NCBI RefSeq assembly: GCF_000016185.1
Contig: NC_011420.2
Span: 2,190,501-2,254,500 of the forward strand
DNA from: Rhodospirillum centenum SW
GTDB lineage: Bacteria; Pseudomonadota; Alphaproteobacteria; Azospirillales; Azospirillaceae
Direction: 5' to 3'
DNA: 64,000 nucleotides
Shown here piece after piece: positions 37,808-45,138 of the stretch. A program made the translations under genes and the position numbers. Numbering within the stretch: the stretch's first letter is position 1; each line of letters starts with the position of its first letter. Under the pieces are notes generated by a model. It was not told where the DNA came from. It saw nothing but the letters and a program-made list of their open reading frames with translations, and did no database searches.

Positions 37808-38042
37808 CCGCGCAGGTCCTGACGGTGACAGGGGCCGCCCGCAGCGCGCGGGGCCGATCCGAGCGGGCGGGTTCTGATGCTTTCAGGGCATGCCTGCCGA
37901 GGCCATGGGCCGCGTCCTTACATCTTTCGCCATCTGGCGCCGCAAATCCGGAGAGAGTATCCCTGTACGAACGGGGTATTCGGTATTCCTTAACCCTGGT
38001 TGTGGTCTGATGGACGGCTGTTGCGGTCGGGGAGACGGGTTC

Positions 38043-39059
38043 ATGGAACCGCTGGAGCTGAACGAGCGGGATTATGCCGTGCTGGAAGAGGCCCTGCTGT
38101 CCTCGGCCCGCGGGCGTGCGTTCCTCCGTCAGCGCGATCACCGCACCCGGCTCGTCTCGCAGGATGCGTGGCGCCAGCTCCTGGCCCAGCTCCGCGAGCA
38201 GGTGGCCCGGCTGGGCGGTGTCACCGGGGTGGAGACCGTCGGCCAGAACCCGCAGATCCGCATCATGCGGGAGGAGCTGAAGCAGCTCTCCAGCTACATC
38301 GAGCAGACCCGGCAGGAGATCGCCCAGCTCCGCCCCATGGATGCCGGCGCCAACCGGATCATGGCGGCGACGAACGAGCTGGACGCCATCGTGACCGCCA
38401 CCGAACGGGCGACCAGCGACATCCTGAACGCCACCGAACGCATCCAGGAACTGCTGGGCCGGCTGCCCGCGTCCGACACCGTCAGCGATATCGAGGCGCA
38501 GACCATCGAGATCATGACGGCGTGCAGCTTCCAGGACATCACCGGACAGCGCACCACCAAGGTCGTCAACACGCTGCGCTACATCGAGCAGCGCGTGAAC
38601 ACGATGATCGAGATCTGGGGCGTGGAGGAGGAGGGAGCCATGCCGGACGGCGGGCTGATCGCCACCCGCCCGGACGACCACCGCCCCGATCGCCACCTGC
38701 TGCACGGCCCCTCGCAGTCCCCGGTCAGCCAGGACAACATCGACGCCCTGTTCGAGGCGCTGGGCGACATCGACAAGCACAAGTCCGACGACGCCGTCAG
38801 CGGCGCGGCTGCCAACGGCCACCTTGCCGCCCATGACGGCGGTCATGACGGTGCCCACGACAGCGGCCACGACGACGGGCACCACATCGACCACCACGCC
38901 CCCGCGGCCGAGGAGAAAGCGGCCCCACCGCCGCCACCTCCCCCGCAGCCGCCGCCTCCCCCGCCGCCCAAGCCCGCGGCCCGGGCCGCAGCACCGGAAC
39001 CGGCCAAGTCCGGCGGCGCCACGGCCACGCAGGCCGACATCGACGCCCTGTTCGGCTGA
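38043..39059 (+). CDS. CheZ-family CheY phosphatase with duplicated CheY-binding tail motif
   Basis: 338-residue protein phosphatase of the CheZ family. A helical core (about 70-195) carries the catalytic signature FQDITGQ; D165 and Q169 align with the E. coli CheZ Asp143/Gln147 pair in FQDLTGQ. E. coli CheZ ends in a CheY-binding peptide SQDQVDDLLDSLGF. Here a similar peptide occurs twice: SQDNIDALFEALG at 229-241 and TQADIDALFG at the C-terminus (329-338). The roughly 88 residues between are His/Asp-rich (HDGGHDGAHDSGHDDGHH), then polyproline. Start chosen at ATG 38043 after GGGGAGACGGG; ATG 38010 is possible. It is followed after 9 bp by the pentapeptide-repeat gene. Confidence 0.86.
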   Translation: MEPLELNERDYAVLEEALLSSARGRAFLRQRDHRTRLVSQDAWRQLLAQLREQVARLGGVTGVETVGQNPQIRIMREELKQLSSYIEQTRQEIAQLRPMDAGANRIMAATNELDAIVTATERATSDILNATERIQELLGRLPASDTVSDIEAQTIEIMTACSFQDITGQRTTKVVNTLRYIEQRVNTMIEIWGVEEEGAMPDGGLIATRPDDHRPDRHLLHGPSQSPVSQDNIDALFEALGDIDKHKSDDAVSGAAANGHLAAHDGGHDGAHDSGHDDGHHIDHHAPAAEEKAAPPPPPPPQPPPPPPPKPAARAAAPEPAKSGGATATQADIDALFG

Positions 39060-39068
39060 GACCGGCCG

Positions 39069-40319
39069 ATGACCGACCAGGAGATCGCCCCCCGCATCCG
39101 GCTCTCCCAGGCGCAGCTCGACCGGGTCTGCGAACGGCACGAGGCGTACCTCGCCGGCCAGGCCGGCGGGACCCGGCTGAACCTTCCGTTCTTCGACCTG
39201 TCGTTCCTGTCCTTCGAGAAGCGCAACCTGACGAGTGCCAACCTCGCCGGGGCGCTGCTGCGCGGCGCCCGGCTGGGCGGCGCCACCCTGGACTACGCCG
39301 ACCTGTTCGGCAGCGACCTGCGCGAGGCCGACCTGACCGGCGCCCAGCTCCGCCGCACCGACCTGCGCGCCGCGAACCTGACCGCGGCGGTGCTGCGCGG
39401 GGCCGTCATGGTGGAGTGCGACCTGCGCGACGGCAGCCTGGCCGGCGCCGGGCGGTCGGACTTCAAGCTGCTGGGGCTGGCCCCGGGGCCGGTGGACATG
39501 ACCGCGACGGTGATGGCCGGAGCCGACCTGACCCGCGCGCGGCTCTCGGGCTCGCTGGCCATGCGGGCGGACTTCAGCGGCGCCGTGATGGTGGAGACGC
39601 GGCTGGTGCATTCCGACCTGCGCGACGCCCGGCTGGTCGGCGCGAACCTGAAGGGGGCCGAGTTCGCGGGGGCGGACCTGCGCGGCGCTGACCTGACCGG
39701 CGCCCGGATCGACGCCGGCGCGCTGGAGGCCGCCATCCTGGGAGCGCAGGACACCGGGCGGCTGAACGAGCGGCCGGCGCTGGCGGAGGAGCTGGGCGAC
39801 GACGTCGCCCCGCCACTGGTGCAGCCCTCCACGGCGGACCTTCAGGCGATGCTGATCGAGCATGCCGCCTGGGTGGCTTCGGCCGGGCGCGAGGGGCGTC
39901 AGCTCGATGCCAGCGGCCTGGATCTCTCCGGCCTCAACCTCGCCGGCCGGGTGCTGACCCTGATGCAGGGGGCGGGCACCTGTCTGCGCGGGGCCGATCT
40001 CAGCGGGGCGCAGCTCCAGGCGGCCAGCCTCACCGGGGCCGATCTGCGCTCGGCCCGGCTGCGGCAGGCGGACCTGCGCGGGGCGACGCTGGACCGTGCC
40101 AACCTGATCGACACGGACCTGGAACGGGCCGACATGGGGCCGCTGGTGACCCAGCGCGGCCACAGCCTCCGCACCTCCCTGGTGCGGGCGCGGCTGGCCG
40201 GGGCGGCGCTGCGCAACACCCGGCTCTGCGGCGCGGACCTGACCTCGGCCGACCTGACCGGGGCCGACCGCACCGGCGCCGACCTGCACGAAGCGATCCT
40301 GGACGGCATCCGCGGCTGA
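39069..40319 (+). CDS. Pentapeptide-repeat protein
   Basis: 416-residue cytoplasmic protein with two right-handed quadrilateral beta-helix blocks of A(D/N)LxG pentapeptides, at about residues 48-220 and 290-415, split by a roughly 65-residue helical insert (QPSTADLQAMLIEHAAWVAS). An N-terminal helix (RIRLSQAQLDRVCERHEAYL) precedes the repeats. No toxin, kinase or membrane domain is seen. The 9-bp gap to the CheZ-like gene implies one operon. Function unknown. Confidence 0.88.
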   Translation: MTDQEIAPRIRLSQAQLDRVCERHEAYLAGQAGGTRLNLPFFDLSFLSFEKRNLTSANLAGALLRGARLGGATLDYADLFGSDLREADLTGAQLRRTDLRAANLTAAVLRGAVMVECDLRDGSLAGAGRSDFKLLGLAPGPVDMTATVMAGADLTRARLSGSLAMRADFSGAVMVETRLVHSDLRDARLVGANLKGAEFAGADLRGADLTGARIDAGALEAAILGAQDTGRLNERPALAEELGDDVAPPLVQPSTADLQAMLIEHAAWVASAGREGRQLDASGLDLSGLNLAGRVLTLMQGAGTCLRGADLSGAQLQAASLTGADLRSARLRQADLRGATLDRANLIDTDLERADMGPLVTQRGHSLRTSLVRARLAGAALRNTRLCGADLTSADLTGADRTGADLHEAILDGIRG

Positions 40320-40340
40320 ATGCCCGCCCGACCGCCGCCG

Positions 40341-41069
40341 CTACGCTGCGGCAGGGGCGGCATCGGACCCGTGTGTTCCGGCCAGGGGGCCGGCCGGCGT
40401 CCGTCCCGCCGCGGCCTGGACCAGCGCCCGGAACAGCCGTTGCTGGCCCCGGTCGGTGAGCAGGAACTCCGGATGCCACTGGACGCCCAGCAGGAACGGC
40501 CGCGCCGGCACCTCCACCGCCTGCACGATGCCGTGGATGTCGCGCGCGGCGATCCGGACCCCCTGCCCCGGCCGGTCCACCGACTGGTGGTGCAGGGCGT
40601 TCACCCGGCATTCCCCCTGCCGCAGCAGCCGGCGCAGCAGGCTGCAGGGATCGACGCAGACGACCTTGCGCGGCAGCACCGTGCGCAGGCGCGGCGCCTC
40701 GACATAGATCTTGTGGATGTCGGTGTGGAGCGTACCGCCGCGGTGGACGTTGATCATCTGGGCGCCGCGGCAGATACCCAGGACCGGGCGGCCGCACCGC
40801 TCGGCCCAGTCCAGCGCCGCCAGTTCCAGCGCGTCGCGGTCGGGGTCGATCCTCACCGTCGGCTCGAGCAGGGAGCCGTAGCGGATGGGCTCGATGTCGT
40901 CGCCGCCGCCGATCACCAGCCCGTCCAGCCGGTCGAAGCGGCAGGCCGTGTCCGGCGTCAGCCGCACCGCCCGCGCCCCCGCCCGGACCAGGGCGAGACG
41001 GTTGAACAGCCAGGGCGTCAGGCTGCGCCGCGCCGACGCGGTGACGCCGATCAGGGGACGGCGGGCCAT
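40341..41069 (-). CDS. Class I glutamine amidotransferase-like hydrolase (peptidase C26/PuuD type)
   Basis: 242-residue protein of the gamma-glutamyl-GABA hydrolase family. N-terminal PLIGVTASARRS, DGLVIGGGDDIEP, nucleophile elbow LGICRGAQMINV (Cys), NALHHQSVD and GVQWHPEFL (His and Glu of the triad). PuuD-type enzymes release glutamate from gamma-glutamyl amines. The gene starts 8 bp after the amidoligase stop on the same strand, so it probably trims or supplies substrate to that ligase. Start MARRPLIG is chosen as the conserved N-terminus. Confidence 0.87.
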   Translation of the reverse strand: MARRPLIGVTASARRSLTPWLFNRLALVRAGARAVRLTPDTACRFDRLDGLVIGGGDDIEPIRYGSLLEPTVRIDPDRDALELAALDWAERCGRPVLGICRGAQMINVHRGGTLHTDIHKIYVEAPRLRTVLPRKVVCVDPCSLLRRLLRQGECRVNALHHQSVDRPGQGVRIAARDIHGIVQAVEVPARPFLLGVQWHPEFLLTDRGQQRLFRALVQAAAGRTPAGPLAGTHGSDAAPAAA

Positions 41070-41077
41070 GCGTCGCC

Positions 41078-42088
41078 TCAGCCCGGCGCCAGCCAGCGGC
41101 CGACCACCCGCGGCCAGTCGGCCAGCGCCCGTTCCCGCCGGCAGTCCTGCCACAGGGCCCCCAGTTCGTTCAGAGCCCAGCGGTCGCTGGCCAGCCGTTC
41201 CACCTGCACCCAGCGGTTCCAGTCCGGCACGATGGACCAGTCCGGCTGCCCCACCCGGCTGTCGGGCAGGCGCCAGTGCCAGGTGGGCCTGGTCTTCACA
41301 AGCGGATCGCGGCCGCACCCGTCCAGCGCGTCCGGCACCAGACAGGCCAGCAGCGGGAAAAGATCAAGCTCGCGGTTGCGGGTCGGGTTCAGGCGGACAT
41401 AGTCGCGGGCGAACCCCTCCAGATCCGGCCGGTAGGCCGGGTCCACGACCAGCGCCGCATACTCCTCGGGGAAGCGGTGGACGAAGGGGGCCACCCGGCG
41501 GGCGATGTCGATGCCCATGTCCTCCCGCAGCCAGGGGGAGAGCAGCAGGTAGGCCTTCATCACGTCGATGATCGGGTCCGCCTCCGGCCGCGCCAGCTCG
41601 GGATTGAAATGCAGGCCGAAGGCGTAGAACAGCCGGCCCTCGGTGCCCATGGCACCGTGCCGGCGCAGCCCCTCGACCAGGGCGTCCAGGGCAGCGATCT
41701 CGTCCACCGGCACGGGCGGACAGGAGATCTCATAGGGCATCACCAGACTGCCGACATCGCCGACGGCGGCGCGGAGCCGCTCCTCCAGGGGGCCGGGCTT
41801 CTCCGCCCTGTCGCCGTCGGGACCTTCCGGATGCGCGGCCAGCATGTCCAGCTCGACCGTGAAGGCACCGTAGAGCGTCCCCTCGATGCGGAAGCTGTGT
41901 TCGTCCTGCGCGCGCACGGTGCCGCCGAAGATGTAGCGCACCAGACGGGCGGTCTCGGACGGCGCCAGGCCCGCATATTCGATCTCGACGCCGACGCGGC
42001 GGCGGCGGCCGTCCGTGCGGTCGGGTTCGGGGGGAAGCAGCGGGTCGAAATGGGTCACGGCGGAAACGGCCTTCGTCGGGACTGTCAT
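41078..42088 (-). CDS. Amidoligase family protein (glutamine-synthetase-like fold)
   Basis: 336-residue predicted COOH-NH2 ligase of the amidoligase family described computationally in 2009 by Iyer, Aravind and co-workers. Family-like motifs: RRVGVEIEYAGL (acidic metal ligands), FTVELDMLA, VMPYEISCPPVP, AFGLHFNPE (catalytic His/Asn), and RNRELDLFPLLA (late Arg/Glu motif). Such proteins are predicted to form amide or isopeptide bonds using ATP. The paired class I glutamine amidotransferase matches the reported genomic association. Substrate unknown; probably cytoplasmic. Confidence 0.82.
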   Translation of the reverse strand: MTVPTKAVSAVTHFDPLLPPEPDRTDGRRRRVGVEIEYAGLAPSETARLVRYIFGGTVRAQDEHSFRIEGTLYGAFTVELDMLAAHPEGPDGDRAEKPGPLEERLRAAVGDVGSLVMPYEISCPPVPVDEIAALDALVEGLRRHGAMGTEGRLFYAFGLHFNPELARPEADPIIDVMKAYLLLSPWLREDMGIDIARRVAPFVHRFPEEYAALVVDPAYRPDLEGFARDYVRLNPTRNRELDLFPLLACLVPDALDGCGRDPLVKTRPTWHWRLPDSRVGQPDWSIVPDWNRWVQVERLASDRWALNELGALWQDCRRERALADWPRVVGRWLAPG

Positions 42089-42121
42089 GGGAATCCGGGG
42101 GGAGCATCCCCGGTGTAACGC

Positions 42122-42757
42122 TCAGATCCGGGAAAGGAGCCAGTCGCGGACCTCGCGGTGGACCCGGTCGCCCACCTCGTCCAGCCCGTGGCGGGCACCG
42201 CTGAACAGCACCATGCGCTTGGGGTCCCGGGCCAGCCGGTGGACATGTTCCGTGCTCTCGCAGGGCAGGACCTCGTCATCCTTGCCGTGGATCAGCAGCA
42301 GGGCGGCGCGCGGCCCCAGCGTCGCGGCCGGTCCGGCGCCGTACCCCTGGGTCGCCAGCGTGGCGACGGCCGTGACCGCGGGCACCTTGGCCGCCGCCTG
42401 GATGACGACGGCGCCGCCGAAGGAATGGCCGACCAGCCCGAACCGGCGGACGCCCTGGGTCTCCAGGTACTGCAGGCCGGCCAGCACGTCGAAGACGCTC
42501 TCGGCCAGGTCGGTGGGATGGCGGTAGCGCACCCGCAGGGAGGCGATGTCCTCGCCCGCCAGTTCCTCGGCCAGCCGGGGGAACAGGTCCCGGGCCGGGC
42601 TGTCCCAGCCGCCGCCGACGCCGCCGGCCCAGACGACACCCCGCTCCGCCCCCGGTGCCGCATGGACACGGCAGCGGATCTCGCCCCGTTCGGTCGCCAG
42701 CGTCACCGGCTGGTATCCGCCCAGCAGGAATGTGTCGTCCTGGGTACCGTCGGCCAT
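42122..42757 (-). CDS. Alpha/beta hydrolase (dienelactone-hydrolase-like)
   Basis: 211-residue single-domain alpha/beta hydrolase. Nucleophile elbow GLVGHSFGGAVV (Ser), acid in LIHGKDDEVLP (Asp) and His in SGARHGLDEV. Resembles small esterase or dienelactone hydrolase-type proteins. It lies 33 bp upstream of the amidoligase gene in the same direction and could be part of that unit. Substrate unknown. Confidence 0.86.
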   Translation of the reverse strand: MADGTQDDTFLLGGYQPVTLATERGEIRCRVHAAPGAERGVVWAGGVGGGWDSPARDLFPRLAEELAGEDIASLRVRYRHPTDLAESVFDVLAGLQYLETQGVRRFGLVGHSFGGAVVIQAAAKVPAVTAVATLATQGYGAGPAATLGPRAALLLIHGKDDEVLPCESTEHVHRLARDPKRMVLFSGARHGLDEVGDRVHREVRDWLLSRI

Positions 42758-42912
42758 GCCATCCCCGTCTGCTGCCGCCCCCTTCCGCTGGAAGAGAACG
42801 GCCGTCCCCCCTCCTGCAACGGAAGGCGGACCCCAGGGTTCCGGCGGGAACGCCCACCTGCCGGCCCGCCTCCGGGGAAGGCAGGCCGGCTCCCTGGCGG
42901 CGACCGGACAGG

Positions 42913-43341
42913 TCAGGTCCGGATGCGACCGTCGATCCGCGCCTCCGCCGGGGCGGTGACGAACCAGCCGAAATAGGCGGCCGGTGCCGCCAGCAGGGCG
43001 TGCAGCCAGATGTCGTGACCGTAGATGGGAATGAGGCCGAAGGTCGTGTTCAGCACCGGGAACAGGCCCATCACGACCAGGAGGCCGTAGACGACGGCGA
43101 CGCTCCGGGCATAGGCGCGGGAGGCACCCCAGCCGCGCGATGCCGACAGGCCCCAGATGCCGAAGGCGAGGTGGACCAGATTATGGACCCAGTTCACCGG
43201 GAACAGGCCCAGCAGGTAGCCGTAGCCACCGTCGATGGCGAGGGCGCTGCCGTTCACCGGCGGCGCCAGCAGTGCGGGAATGAAGCCCAGGATGCCGGCC
43301 CCGGTGAACAGCAGGCCCCAGACGAGGGCGAATGTCCGCAT
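42913..43341 (-). CDS. DUF4383-type four-helix membrane protein
   Basis: 142-residue integral membrane protein with four predicted helices (about 5-25, 48-66, 80-98, 112-130). Typical DUF4383 sequences are LLGLFPVNWVHNLVHLAFGI and NTTFGLIPIYGHDIWLHALL. Function unknown; often stress-associated. The downstream gap to the hydrolase gene is 155 bp with nothing recognisable. Confidence 0.83.
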   Translation of the reverse strand: MRTFALVWGLLFTGAGILGFIPALLAPPVNGSALAIDGGYGYLLGLFPVNWVHNLVHLAFGIWGLSASRGWGASRAYARSVAVVYGLLVVMGLFPVLNTTFGLIPIYGHDIWLHALLAAPAAYFGWFVTAPAEARIDGRIRT

Positions 43342-43464
43342 GGATCATCTCCGGAAGAGAACGGGTGGTCCCGTCTCAACCGGCACGCCCGACGGCCGTT
43401 GCACCGCAATCGACCGGCCGGCCGGGAAAAGCGGCCGACGCGGAGGTTCTGGCCGTGCGGACCG

Positions 43465-44379
43465 TCAGGCGGCGCGGCGCAGGTCGGCCTTGGCCCGCTT
43501 GGACGCCATGGGCAGGATCGGGGCGGCCGAGGCCTCGGCGGCGCCACGGACCCGGCGGGCGACCTTCTTGTAGGCCCCGCTCTCGATCTGGCGGATGCGC
43601 TCCTTGCTGACGCCGTACTGCTGCGCCAGCGTCTCCAGCGTCACCGGCTGGTCGGTCAGGTTGCGGCTGACGAAGATGTGGCGCTCCCGGTCGCCCAGGG
43701 CTCCCAGCGCATCGACCATCAGGGCCTTGCGGACCGCCAGCTCGCTCTTCTCGGCAAGGCGGACCTCCACCGTCTCCGTCTCGTCGGCCAGCAGGTCCAG
43801 CGCCTCGTGGTCGCCGTCCTCTCCCACCGGCACGTTCAGCGACGTCACCGGGGTGGCGAAACGGTGCTCCATCTCCCGCACCTCATCGACGGAGGCGCCC
43901 AGCTCGTCGGCGACACGATCCGCCTCCTCGTCGCTCATGATGCGGTCCTGGATGCCCAGCCGGCGCTGCGTCTGGCGGAGATTGAAGAACAGGCGCTTCA
44001 GCGCGGCCGTGTTGCCGCCCTTCAGCATGGACCAGTTGTGCAGCACGTAGGTCTGCACCTCCGCCCGGATCCACCACAGCGCATAGGTCGCCAGACGGAA
44101 ACCGCGGTCGGGGTCGAAGCGCTGCACGGCCTTCACCAGGCCGATGTTCGCCTCCGAGATCAGATCGCCCATGGGCAGGCCCGAACGGGCGTATTTGGAG
44201 GCGATCTTCACCGCCAGCCGCATATGGCTGCGCACCAGCCGGTCGAACGCCTTCCGGTCCTGACGCTCCGCCCAGGCCCGCGCCAACATCTGCTCCTCCG
44301 CCGGGTCCAGCATGGGATGGCGGTTGGCCTGGGCCGTGTAGGCACGCAGCACATCGATGGATTCGGAAAAGACTGACAT
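43465..44379 (-). CDS. rpoH: RNA polymerase sigma-32 (RpoH-type) factor
   Basis: 304-residue alternative sigma factor. Region 2: LVRSHMRLAVKIASKYARSG, LISEANIGLVKAVQRFDPDR and RLATYALWWIRAEVQTYVL. The RpoH box is SMLKGGNTAALKRLFFNLRQ (Q/R-box variant of the E. coli sigma-32 type). Region 4: VTLETLAQQYGVSKERIRQI. A basic C-tail follows. The GGAGG RBS lies 9 nt before ATG 44379, which favours it over the ATG at 44388. Alphaproteobacteria often carry several rpoH genes; this could be RpoH1 or RpoH2, and catalase and ohr nearby fit an oxidative-stress role. Confidence 0.92.
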   Translation of the reverse strand: MSVFSESIDVLRAYTAQANRHPMLDPAEEQMLARAWAERQDRKAFDRLVRSHMRLAVKIASKYARSGLPMGDLISEANIGLVKAVQRFDPDRGFRLATYALWWIRAEVQTYVLHNWSMLKGGNTAALKRLFFNLRQTQRRLGIQDRIMSDEEADRVADELGASVDEVREMEHRFATPVTSLNVPVGEDGDHEALDLLADETETVEVRLAEKSELAVRKALMVDALGALGDRERHIFVSRNLTDQPVTLETLAQQYGVSKERIRQIESGAYKKVARRVRGAAEASAAPILPMASKRAKADLRRAA

Positions 44380-44793
44380 CAGCAACATCCTCCAGACGCA
44401 GAGGCACCATGGCACAGGGCCGGCCTGTGCGGGGGCACTCCCGCCCCCGCGCCCGGCCTTGCCGGGCACGCCCTGTCGGTCCGCCGTCCTTTCTTGGAAC
44501 GGTTCTAAGATAAGCCCGCCGCCACCGATCCGCAAGCCCCGAGATAACTTGCAAACAAGATTATCGTGCGCAGGGATTTCCGCCTCCCTGCGCACGCCCG
44601 ATCGTCCCGCCCTGTCTCCCTGGATGCCGTGTCCAGGCGCACCTGCCTTCGGGGTCCGTCTCGCCAGGGGTCCTTTCAGGGCATGTCCTCGGGAACGTGA
44701 GGGTCAACAGCGGACCCGCGCCCCTGTTCCCCACCCGCCTTACCCGCCGCCAGGGCAGGAAGACCGGAGCGGCCGGCGCGGGCCGGGCCGGCG
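44380..44793. other. rpoH leader and promoter interval
   Basis: 414 bp between the pseudo-receiver gene and rpoH. It holds the rpoH sigma-70-type promoter (44507-44535), a leader of about 120 nt, and AT-rich sequence around 44540-44575 that could bind regulators. I see no gene in it. Confidence 0.6.
44507..44535 (-). promoter_or_regulatory. Sigma-70-type promoter of rpoH
   Basis: Minus strand -35 TTGCGG (44530-44535), 17-bp spacer, -10 TATCTT (44507-44512). It is about 130 bp upstream of the rpoH ATG. Confidence 0.55.
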
Positions 44794-45138
44794 TCAGGCA
44801 ACGGCGACGGCGGGCGGGGTCTCGAAGGCGCTGGAAATCTCCAGCACGTCGGGCGCCCCGCTCAGCACCCAGTCGCCCGGCGCGGTCAGGCCCGGATGGG
44901 CCCCGTCCCAGACGACAGCGCCACCCAGGGACCGGATGCGGGCGGCCATGTCGCCGACGGCCGTGGCAGGATAGAGCCCGCCGCCGATCAAGGCGCCGCC
45001 GAAGCGCATCTCCCGCAGCAGCGCCAGGGCAGAGGCCGGATCGTTGGTCACCGCCTTGGCGCGGTGACCGGCCCGTGCCAGTTGCCCCGCAAGGCGCAGC
45101 GCCTTCAGGGCATCGCCTTCAACCAGGAGGATGTCCAT
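44794..45138 (-). CDS. Degenerate receiver-like (pseudo-receiver) protein
   Basis: 114-residue protein with a receiver-like N-terminal half: MDILLVEGDALKALRLAGQL, then RAGHRAKAVTNDPASALALL. The acceptor Asp position reads Gly (GGALIGGGLYP) and the conserved Thr and Lys are missing, so phosphorylation is unlikely. The C-terminal half (VVWDGAHPGLTAPGDWVLSG) is unlike a normal receiver. It sits upstream of rpoH in the same direction. Function unknown. Confidence 0.68.
   Translation of the reverse strand: MDILLVEGDALKALRLAGQLARAGHRAKAVTNDPASALALLREMRFGGALIGGGLYPATAVGDMAARIRSLGGAVVWDGAHPGLTAPGDWVLSGAPDVLEISSAFETPPAVAVA

Follow-up and report, generated by a model that had tools for sequence, protein, structure and literature searches.

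A conserved amidoligase and peptidase C26-type gene pair in Rhodospirillum centenum and its possible gamma-glutamyl function

An amidoligase gene and a gene of the peptidase C26 type, adjacent on the minus strand of the Rhodospirillum centenum SW genome, form a conserved two-gene unit (Table 1). The two are kept together in 71 of 79 ligase loci while most of their surroundings change, and because of this it is very likely that the ligase and the C26 hydrolase share one substrate. The reading that we favor, with middling confidence, is that the ligase joins glutamate via its side chain to an amine and that the C26 enzyme removes the glutamate.

The preliminary description of this DNA had placed three minus-strand genes within 34 bp of one another in the window (the whole stretch of 64,000 nucleotides that was analyzed). 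Subtraction of the coordinates bears this out, with 33 bases between the alpha/beta hydrolase gene and the amidoligase gene and 8 bases between the amidoligase gene and the C26 gene. Because the latter gap is as short as 8 bases, the amidoligase and C26 genes are probably co-translated. No promoter or terminator pattern was found in a scan of the region 40200-43400, and none of the five proteins given to the PADLOC anti-phage defence models matched a family at E 0.001.

Table 1. Genes of the cluster and its upstream neighbor, with positions in the window
Feature	Position	Strand	Remarks
Alpha/beta hydrolase	42122-42757	minus	211 aa; matches general alpha/beta hydrolase models only; neighbor outside the conserved unit
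Amidoligase, PF12224 (Amidoligase_2)	41078-42088	minus	336 aa; predicted carboxylate-amine ligase of the glutamine-synthetase fold
Class I amidotransferase-like gene, peptidase C26 type	40341-41069	minus	242 aa, ATG at 41069; predicted gamma-glutamyl amide hydrolase
Sigma-32-like (RpoH-like) gene	43465-44595	minus	upstream of the cluster; outside the conserved unit

Results and Discussion

Conservation of the pair

In a search at the level of the order, ligase matches were found in 51 of 82 genomes, and 46 of the 51 are of the paired type. The C26-like gene lies directly downstream of the ligase on the same strand in all 46 genomes with a paired-type ligase (30 loci were read directly and the other 16 were judged by coordinates). 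Co-occurrence in other genomes, which the preliminary description had proposed as a check on all three genes, is therefore seen for the ligase and the C26 gene, whereas the alpha/beta hydrolase adjoins them in only 4 of the 38 pair-bearing genomes that encode it. Five genomes (G077-G081) bear only a more distant ligase type (E 1e-48 to 7e-55), with no C26-like match alongside at E 1e-25. In G031 a C26-like match begins at base 3 of a contig and no amidoligase was found; the amidoligase may be cut off at the contig end. Three genes are matched in two pieces each, namely the C26-like gene of G045 (L009) and the amidoligases of G006 (G006:C15) and G007 (G007:C4), perhaps owing to frameshifts, insertions or sequencing errors.

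Beyond the order, the distribution of PF12224 is sparse and scattered. The ligase profile is matched in 25 of 385 genomes at the class level and PF12224 in 24 of 398 at the phylum level, and 11 records of the plasmid collection match the ligase. Over all searches the C26 gene adjoins the ligase in 71 of the 79 distinct ligase loci read and is absent beside 8, in a non-random sample that comprises at most the 30 best loci of each search and 7 of the 11 matching plasmid records, which were opened. Left out of these counts were L001, L035, L072-L074 and L077, which duplicate other loci, and L081-L085 (from G606 and G666), whose partial PF12224 matches are unrecognised by the ligase profile.

The eight unpaired ligases form one clade in the tree (support 100/99), and a single change accounts for them, against a mean of 7.8 when the states are shuffled. 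Four of the eight (L087, L089, L090 and L092), in a single clade, are plasmid-borne, and three of these (L087, L090 and L092) have a recombinase or insertion-sequence gene less than 8 kb away. The ligase of L090 is near IS66 and transfer genes, that of L092 near a recombinase and a transposase, and that of L087 within 8 kb of a recombinase.

The alpha/beta hydrolase and other neighbors

The alpha/beta hydrolase is encoded in 40 of the 82 genomes of the order (E 1e-25). Among the 46 genomes with the pair it is found in 38 and not found in 8; it stands beside the pair only in G000, G054, G055 and G067, and in the remaining 34 it is encoded at another place. It is also present in G052, in which no ligase was found, and in G031, whose ligase is possibly lost at the contig end. 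Because it seldom adjoins the pair, was not found in 8 of the 46 genomes and occurs in G052 without a ligase match, the alpha/beta hydrolase is a neighbor by lineage and not a member of the unit. The preliminary description had counted it as a member of the system, and we drop it; a three-gene unit was rejected since the hydrolase is usually encoded away from the pair.

A longer conserved operon was also looked for in clustered neighborhoods and was not found. The clustering of 47 neighborhoods took reading frames of at least 90 residues, so that a very short tag gene would be missed. It recovered the ligase in 40 neighborhoods, the other seven having lost it to overlapping frames, and recovered the C26 gene in 33. 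The next commonest cluster occurs in 12 of 40 neighborhoods, at scattered places and on both strands. One opposite-strand gene adjoins the ligase in four gammaproteobacterium-like loci of one family (L123, L124, L125 and L128), and in L123, the one scanned, it encodes a mechanosensitive channel. Among the same-strand neighbors, of which 54 were scanned, every family is limited to 3 matches at most (out of 58; L033:4913-5974 and three L131 genes, near copies of L107, were left out). The genes around the pair are varied and include citrate-type transporters, TauE/SafE, PPK2, VTT, LrgB, a peroxidase and a sensor kinase, among others. Local exceptions to these changing surroundings are the alpha/beta hydrolase and a CheZ-like gene, both in near kin, and the opposite-strand gene of the four loci just named.

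In the window, the CheZ-like gene and a pentapeptide-repeat gene of 416 aa (37890-40319) are oriented towards the pair. Both occur near it again in L032 and L094, and the CheZ-like gene in L093 as well. A DUF4383 gene at 42913-43341 lies upstream of the alpha/beta hydrolase gene on the same strand.

The amidoligase

The window ligase matches PF12224 with 157.8 bits (cut-off 22, E 5.6e-46, profile positions 2-244 of 245) and does not match PF00120; all 14 members of alignment A1, the window ligase included, match PF12224. Eleven residues (E35, E37, D81, E120, N162, R237, D242, R267, H271, R273 and E297) are identical in all 81 ligase rows, 79 of them distinct, as would be expected of an active enzyme. 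No published assay of a PF12224 enzyme was found in the literature searched, which is not proof of absence.

A glutamine-synthetase-like fold is predicted for the amidoligase, with weak structural support. A sequence search of the PDB with the ligase gave no relative. AlphaFold models were built from four sequences only; the first has a pLDDT of 53.1, and the second, of a relative (L034) that is 38% identical to the window ligase, has a mean pLDDT of 63.3. Foldseek gave no match at E 0.001 for either model, its output for the first being noise. With the second-look aligner, 438 chains reached Z of at least 2, and 18 of the best 50 align over at least 160 residues; all 18 are glutamine synthetases, glutamate-cysteine ligase, gamma-glutamylmethylamide synthetase, guanido kinases or Dop, and the other 32 align over at most 125 residues. 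The chains of the glutamine synthetase superfamily align over 169-220 residues with Z 4.7-6.0, from a weak model and in a range (Z below 8) that can arise by chance; this holds also for the best of them, a plant glutamate-cysteine ligase (Z 6.0 over 220 residues). Five short unrelated folds outrank these chains. A profile comparison (hhalign) of the ligase with the GCS2 and glutamine synthetase alignments gave no match, and its positive control, GCS2 against glutamine synthetase, was negative too.

A phage origin of the ligase was considered and is unsupported: searches with it gave no match among the phages (tblastn, E 0.01) or in PHROG, and no relative in the viral contigs.

The C26-type partner

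The preliminary description had joined the amidoligase to a class I amidotransferase. The pairing is real and conserved, and what gives way is the type of the partner, which is of the C26 hydrolase type and not clearly ammonia-supplying. It matches PF07722 (Peptidase_C26) with 145.7 bits (cut-off 20.5, E 2.3e-42), and PF00117 (GATase), also above the cut-off, with 45.3 bits (E 1.1e-11). The catalytic triad C100, H199 and E201 is identical in all 71 aligned rows (of 73, after exclusion of two whose match was short; two contigs contribute two rows each). Its best solved relatives are 7d4r ('probable glutamine amidotransferase', E 8.1e-30), which we take to be SpuA of Pseudomonas aeruginosa, Lin1909 (3fij, E 1e-27) and PuuD (6vtv, E 3.2e-19). 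SpuA and PuuD take part in polyamine use. From these relatives and the intact catalytic residues, the partner is predicted to be a gamma-glutamyl amide hydrolase. Its score with the PuuD equivalog NF008471, 75.4 bits against a cut-off of 266, makes it a PuuD relative but not PuuD itself. It also matches the phage family phrog_7218, 'glutamine amidotransferase' (E 5e-21).

The residues RD before the nucleophile are common to the partner, 7d4r, 3fij and PuuD. The longer pattern RD..E is found in the partner and is absent from four other class I amidotransferase-like genes of the genome (the comparison covered L147-L150, and L145, the second C26 gene, gave no row); its final E is missing in 7d4r and PuuD, so that the pattern alone is no mark of gamma-glutamyl hydrolases. 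The second peptidase C26 gene of the genome, at G000:C1:2873322-2873969, is the stronger match (241 bits) and is a candidate for an ordinary PuuD-type enzyme.

The partner could instead be a true glutamine amidotransferase subunit that channels ammonia to the amidoligase, which would then form a primary amide on an acid, as in MurT/GatD, where GatD supplies the ammonia. The strict pairing and the gene order would suit such a two-subunit enzyme, and the PF00117 match above the cut-off is in keeping with it. However, the partner scores three times as many bits with the C26 model as with the GATase model and carries RD..E, which the four other class I amidotransferase-like genes lack; moreover, the cyclotransferase that stands next to amidoligases in other lineages cannot supply ammonia, though those ligases are distant. 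Taken together, we consider this reading unlikely. GatD/MurT is a known example (PMC5871853, PMC3267633); judging from the available portions of these papers, its peptidoglycan amidation resembles the pair here in joining a ligase to a class I amidotransferase-like partner, and differs from it in the ligase family, MurT being Mur-ligase-like, and in the partner, which here is of the C26 type.

The place of PuuD and 7d4r among the relatives of the C26 protein also recalls the PuuA/PuuD gamma-glutamyl putrescine pathway, in which case the ligase would gamma-glutamylate an amine for safe oxidation and the C26 enzyme would remove the glutamate last. The likeness extends to a C26 hydrolase with an intact triad and possibly, going by the weak model, to a ligase of the glutamine synthetase type of fold, and on plasmid pSC52_3 the pair adjoins genes for an aldehyde dehydrogenase and an amino-acid transporter protein. 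In contrast to PuuA/PuuD, however, the ligase belongs to PF12224 and not to PF00120, and neither an oxidase nor an aldehyde dehydrogenase recurs: aldehyde dehydrogenase occurs in one of the 54 same-strand neighbors, which is that of pSC52_3 itself, no oxidase family matches at least 2 of the 54, and a scan of 9 genes of the window around the pair found no aldehyde dehydrogenase. The genome, furthermore, has the other C26 gene and three PF00120 genes elsewhere. A Puu-like catabolic role is thus quite unlikely.

A possible gamma-glutamyl bond as the common element

Most ligases of the glutamine synthetase fold activate the gamma-carboxylate of glutamate, and because of this a ligase that makes a gamma-glutamyl amide, with a neighbor that removes it, is the simplest reading. 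In phage phiEco32, phi32_84 matches PF12224 (34 bits, cut-off 22) and shares one strand of a stretch of about 7 kb with the gamma-glutamyl cyclotransferase phi32_77 (PF06094) and further ligases; the cluster also holds an annotated ATP-grasp gene, a class II amidotransferase and a PF14395 ligase. In the phage collection the phi32_84-type ligase is matched by 279 records and the cyclotransferase by 177, counted in separate lists and not as co-occurrence. Similar neighbors are seen in the available text of several papers: Orf22 ('putative amidoligase') directly adjoins Orf23 ('AIG2/GGCT-like') in Clostridium difficile Tn6164 (PMC3485107), two C. clostridioforme prophage regions list an amidoligase and a cyclotransferase-type gene (PMC11318856), and a planctomycete phage has amidotransferase, amidoligase, glutathione synthase and cyclotransferase genes (PMC10945688). 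Two unrelated types of enzyme that act on gamma-glutamyl groups therefore adjoin the same ligase family, which points to a gamma-glutamyl bond.

The phiEco32 and Tn6164 clusters are like the pair in having an amidoligase near an enzyme acting on gamma-glutamyl groups. They differ in that their partner is a cyclotransferase and in that the phage ligase is too distant for tblastn, and phiEco32 further differs in its extra ATP-grasp and class II amidotransferase genes. Because the window ligase has neither a tblastn match (E 0.01) in the phage collection nor a PHROG match, the phage and clostridial ligases, being distant from it, may do something else.

For the window pair, the ligase would activate the side-chain carboxylate of glutamate in an ATP-dependent step and join the activated glutamate to an amine. 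The C26 enzyme would hydrolyse the resulting gamma-glutamyl amide to glutamate and the free or an altered amine; we infer the use of ATP, glutamate as the acyl donor and the direction of each step, as we do the fold. Among the observations that count against this make-and-break reading are that PF00117 is also matched above its cut-off and that 8 of the 79 ligases have no C26 neighbor. The preliminary description knew of no defined product for the pair, and we found none for the ligase and its C26 partner either.

A related possibility, of a kind already suggested for certain amidoligases, is tagging: a protein or a cell-wall acceptor would receive glutamate or a peptide from the ligase, and the C26 enzyme would take it off. 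The chains of the glutamine synthetase fold in the structure comparison include Dop (7oxv), which would fit such tagging. Peptidase C26 relatives, however, act on small molecules, and no further small gene recurs beside the pair among frames of at least 90 residues, a size below which a shorter tag gene is missed. Phage papers, in their available portions, repeat a proposal of cell-wall modification for amidoligases. On balance, tagging is highly improbable, and we keep to the reversible gamma-glutamylation of an amine.

Setting in R. centenum

The sigma-32-like gene upstream of the cluster is probably RC1_2169. The available text of three R. centenum papers (PMC4681086, PMC4340629, PMC7117780) describes RC1_2169 as activated by CgrA, rising late in cyst formation and falling in germination. 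The CgrA site published for RC1_2169, 'RNA polymerase sigma-32 factor', minus strand, is found exactly at 45088-45103 of the window. In the available part of the source the peak summit of RC1_2169 is listed 92 bases from the first codon, with a promoter window of -1000 to +50; the possible starts here, 44595 or 44379, are about 0.5-0.7 kb downstream of the site at 45088, which disagrees with the listed 92. When two mismatches are allowed, a second match is found at 43962-43977, inside the sigma gene, with 0.71 expected by chance. The genome holds just one other exact copy of the site. No sigma-32 gene lies less than 1.5 kb from that copy, and it is inside a reading frame that, we assume, resembles acetyl-CoA carboxylase alpha.

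Because L033, L093 and L094 have no homolog of the DUF4383 gene or the sigma gene, the link of the pair to the sigma-32 gene is local. The amidotransferase is not mentioned in the main text, as far as available, of PMC4681086, PMC4340629 and PMC7117780, and the same is true of the amidoligase in the two of these cyst papers in which it was looked for. In its widest form our proposal would have the two genes work across Pseudomonadota as an autonomous cycle, separate from any catabolic pathway, in which glutamate is put on and taken off an undescribed amine or amino acid; in R. centenum this cycle would stand under or beside the CgrA/sigma-32 cyst program. In this form the proposal is very doubtful.

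Implications for the amidoligase family

Iyer et al. 2009 (Mol BioSyst) reportedly predicted a pair of an amidoligase and a thiol-type amidotransferase-like protein in proteobacteria, with an AIG2 partner in firmicutes, and the Pfam note on PF12224 is said to describe the same proteobacterial pairing and the AIG2 partner in firmicutes. The ligase family PF12224 is common to that prediction and to the pair here, and no difference between them is demonstrable. It is thus probable that the pair is a further instance of the previously predicted association rather than a new one. The system had been put forward as a candidate for an undescribed pathway; it is hardly undescribed, given that three papers, in the portions available, refer to Iyer et al. 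2009 on phage amidoligases and the genes around them. Our analysis takes the alpha/beta hydrolase out of the system, reads the partner as a C26 enzyme, places the unpaired ligases in a single clade, lends the fold weak structural support and points to a host that permits direct tests: R. centenum is described as genetically amenable in the available text of PMC2890560, so that the pair is directly testable in it. Naming the substrate that the ligase and the C26 hydrolase very likely share would assign a function to a domain family of bacteria and phages.
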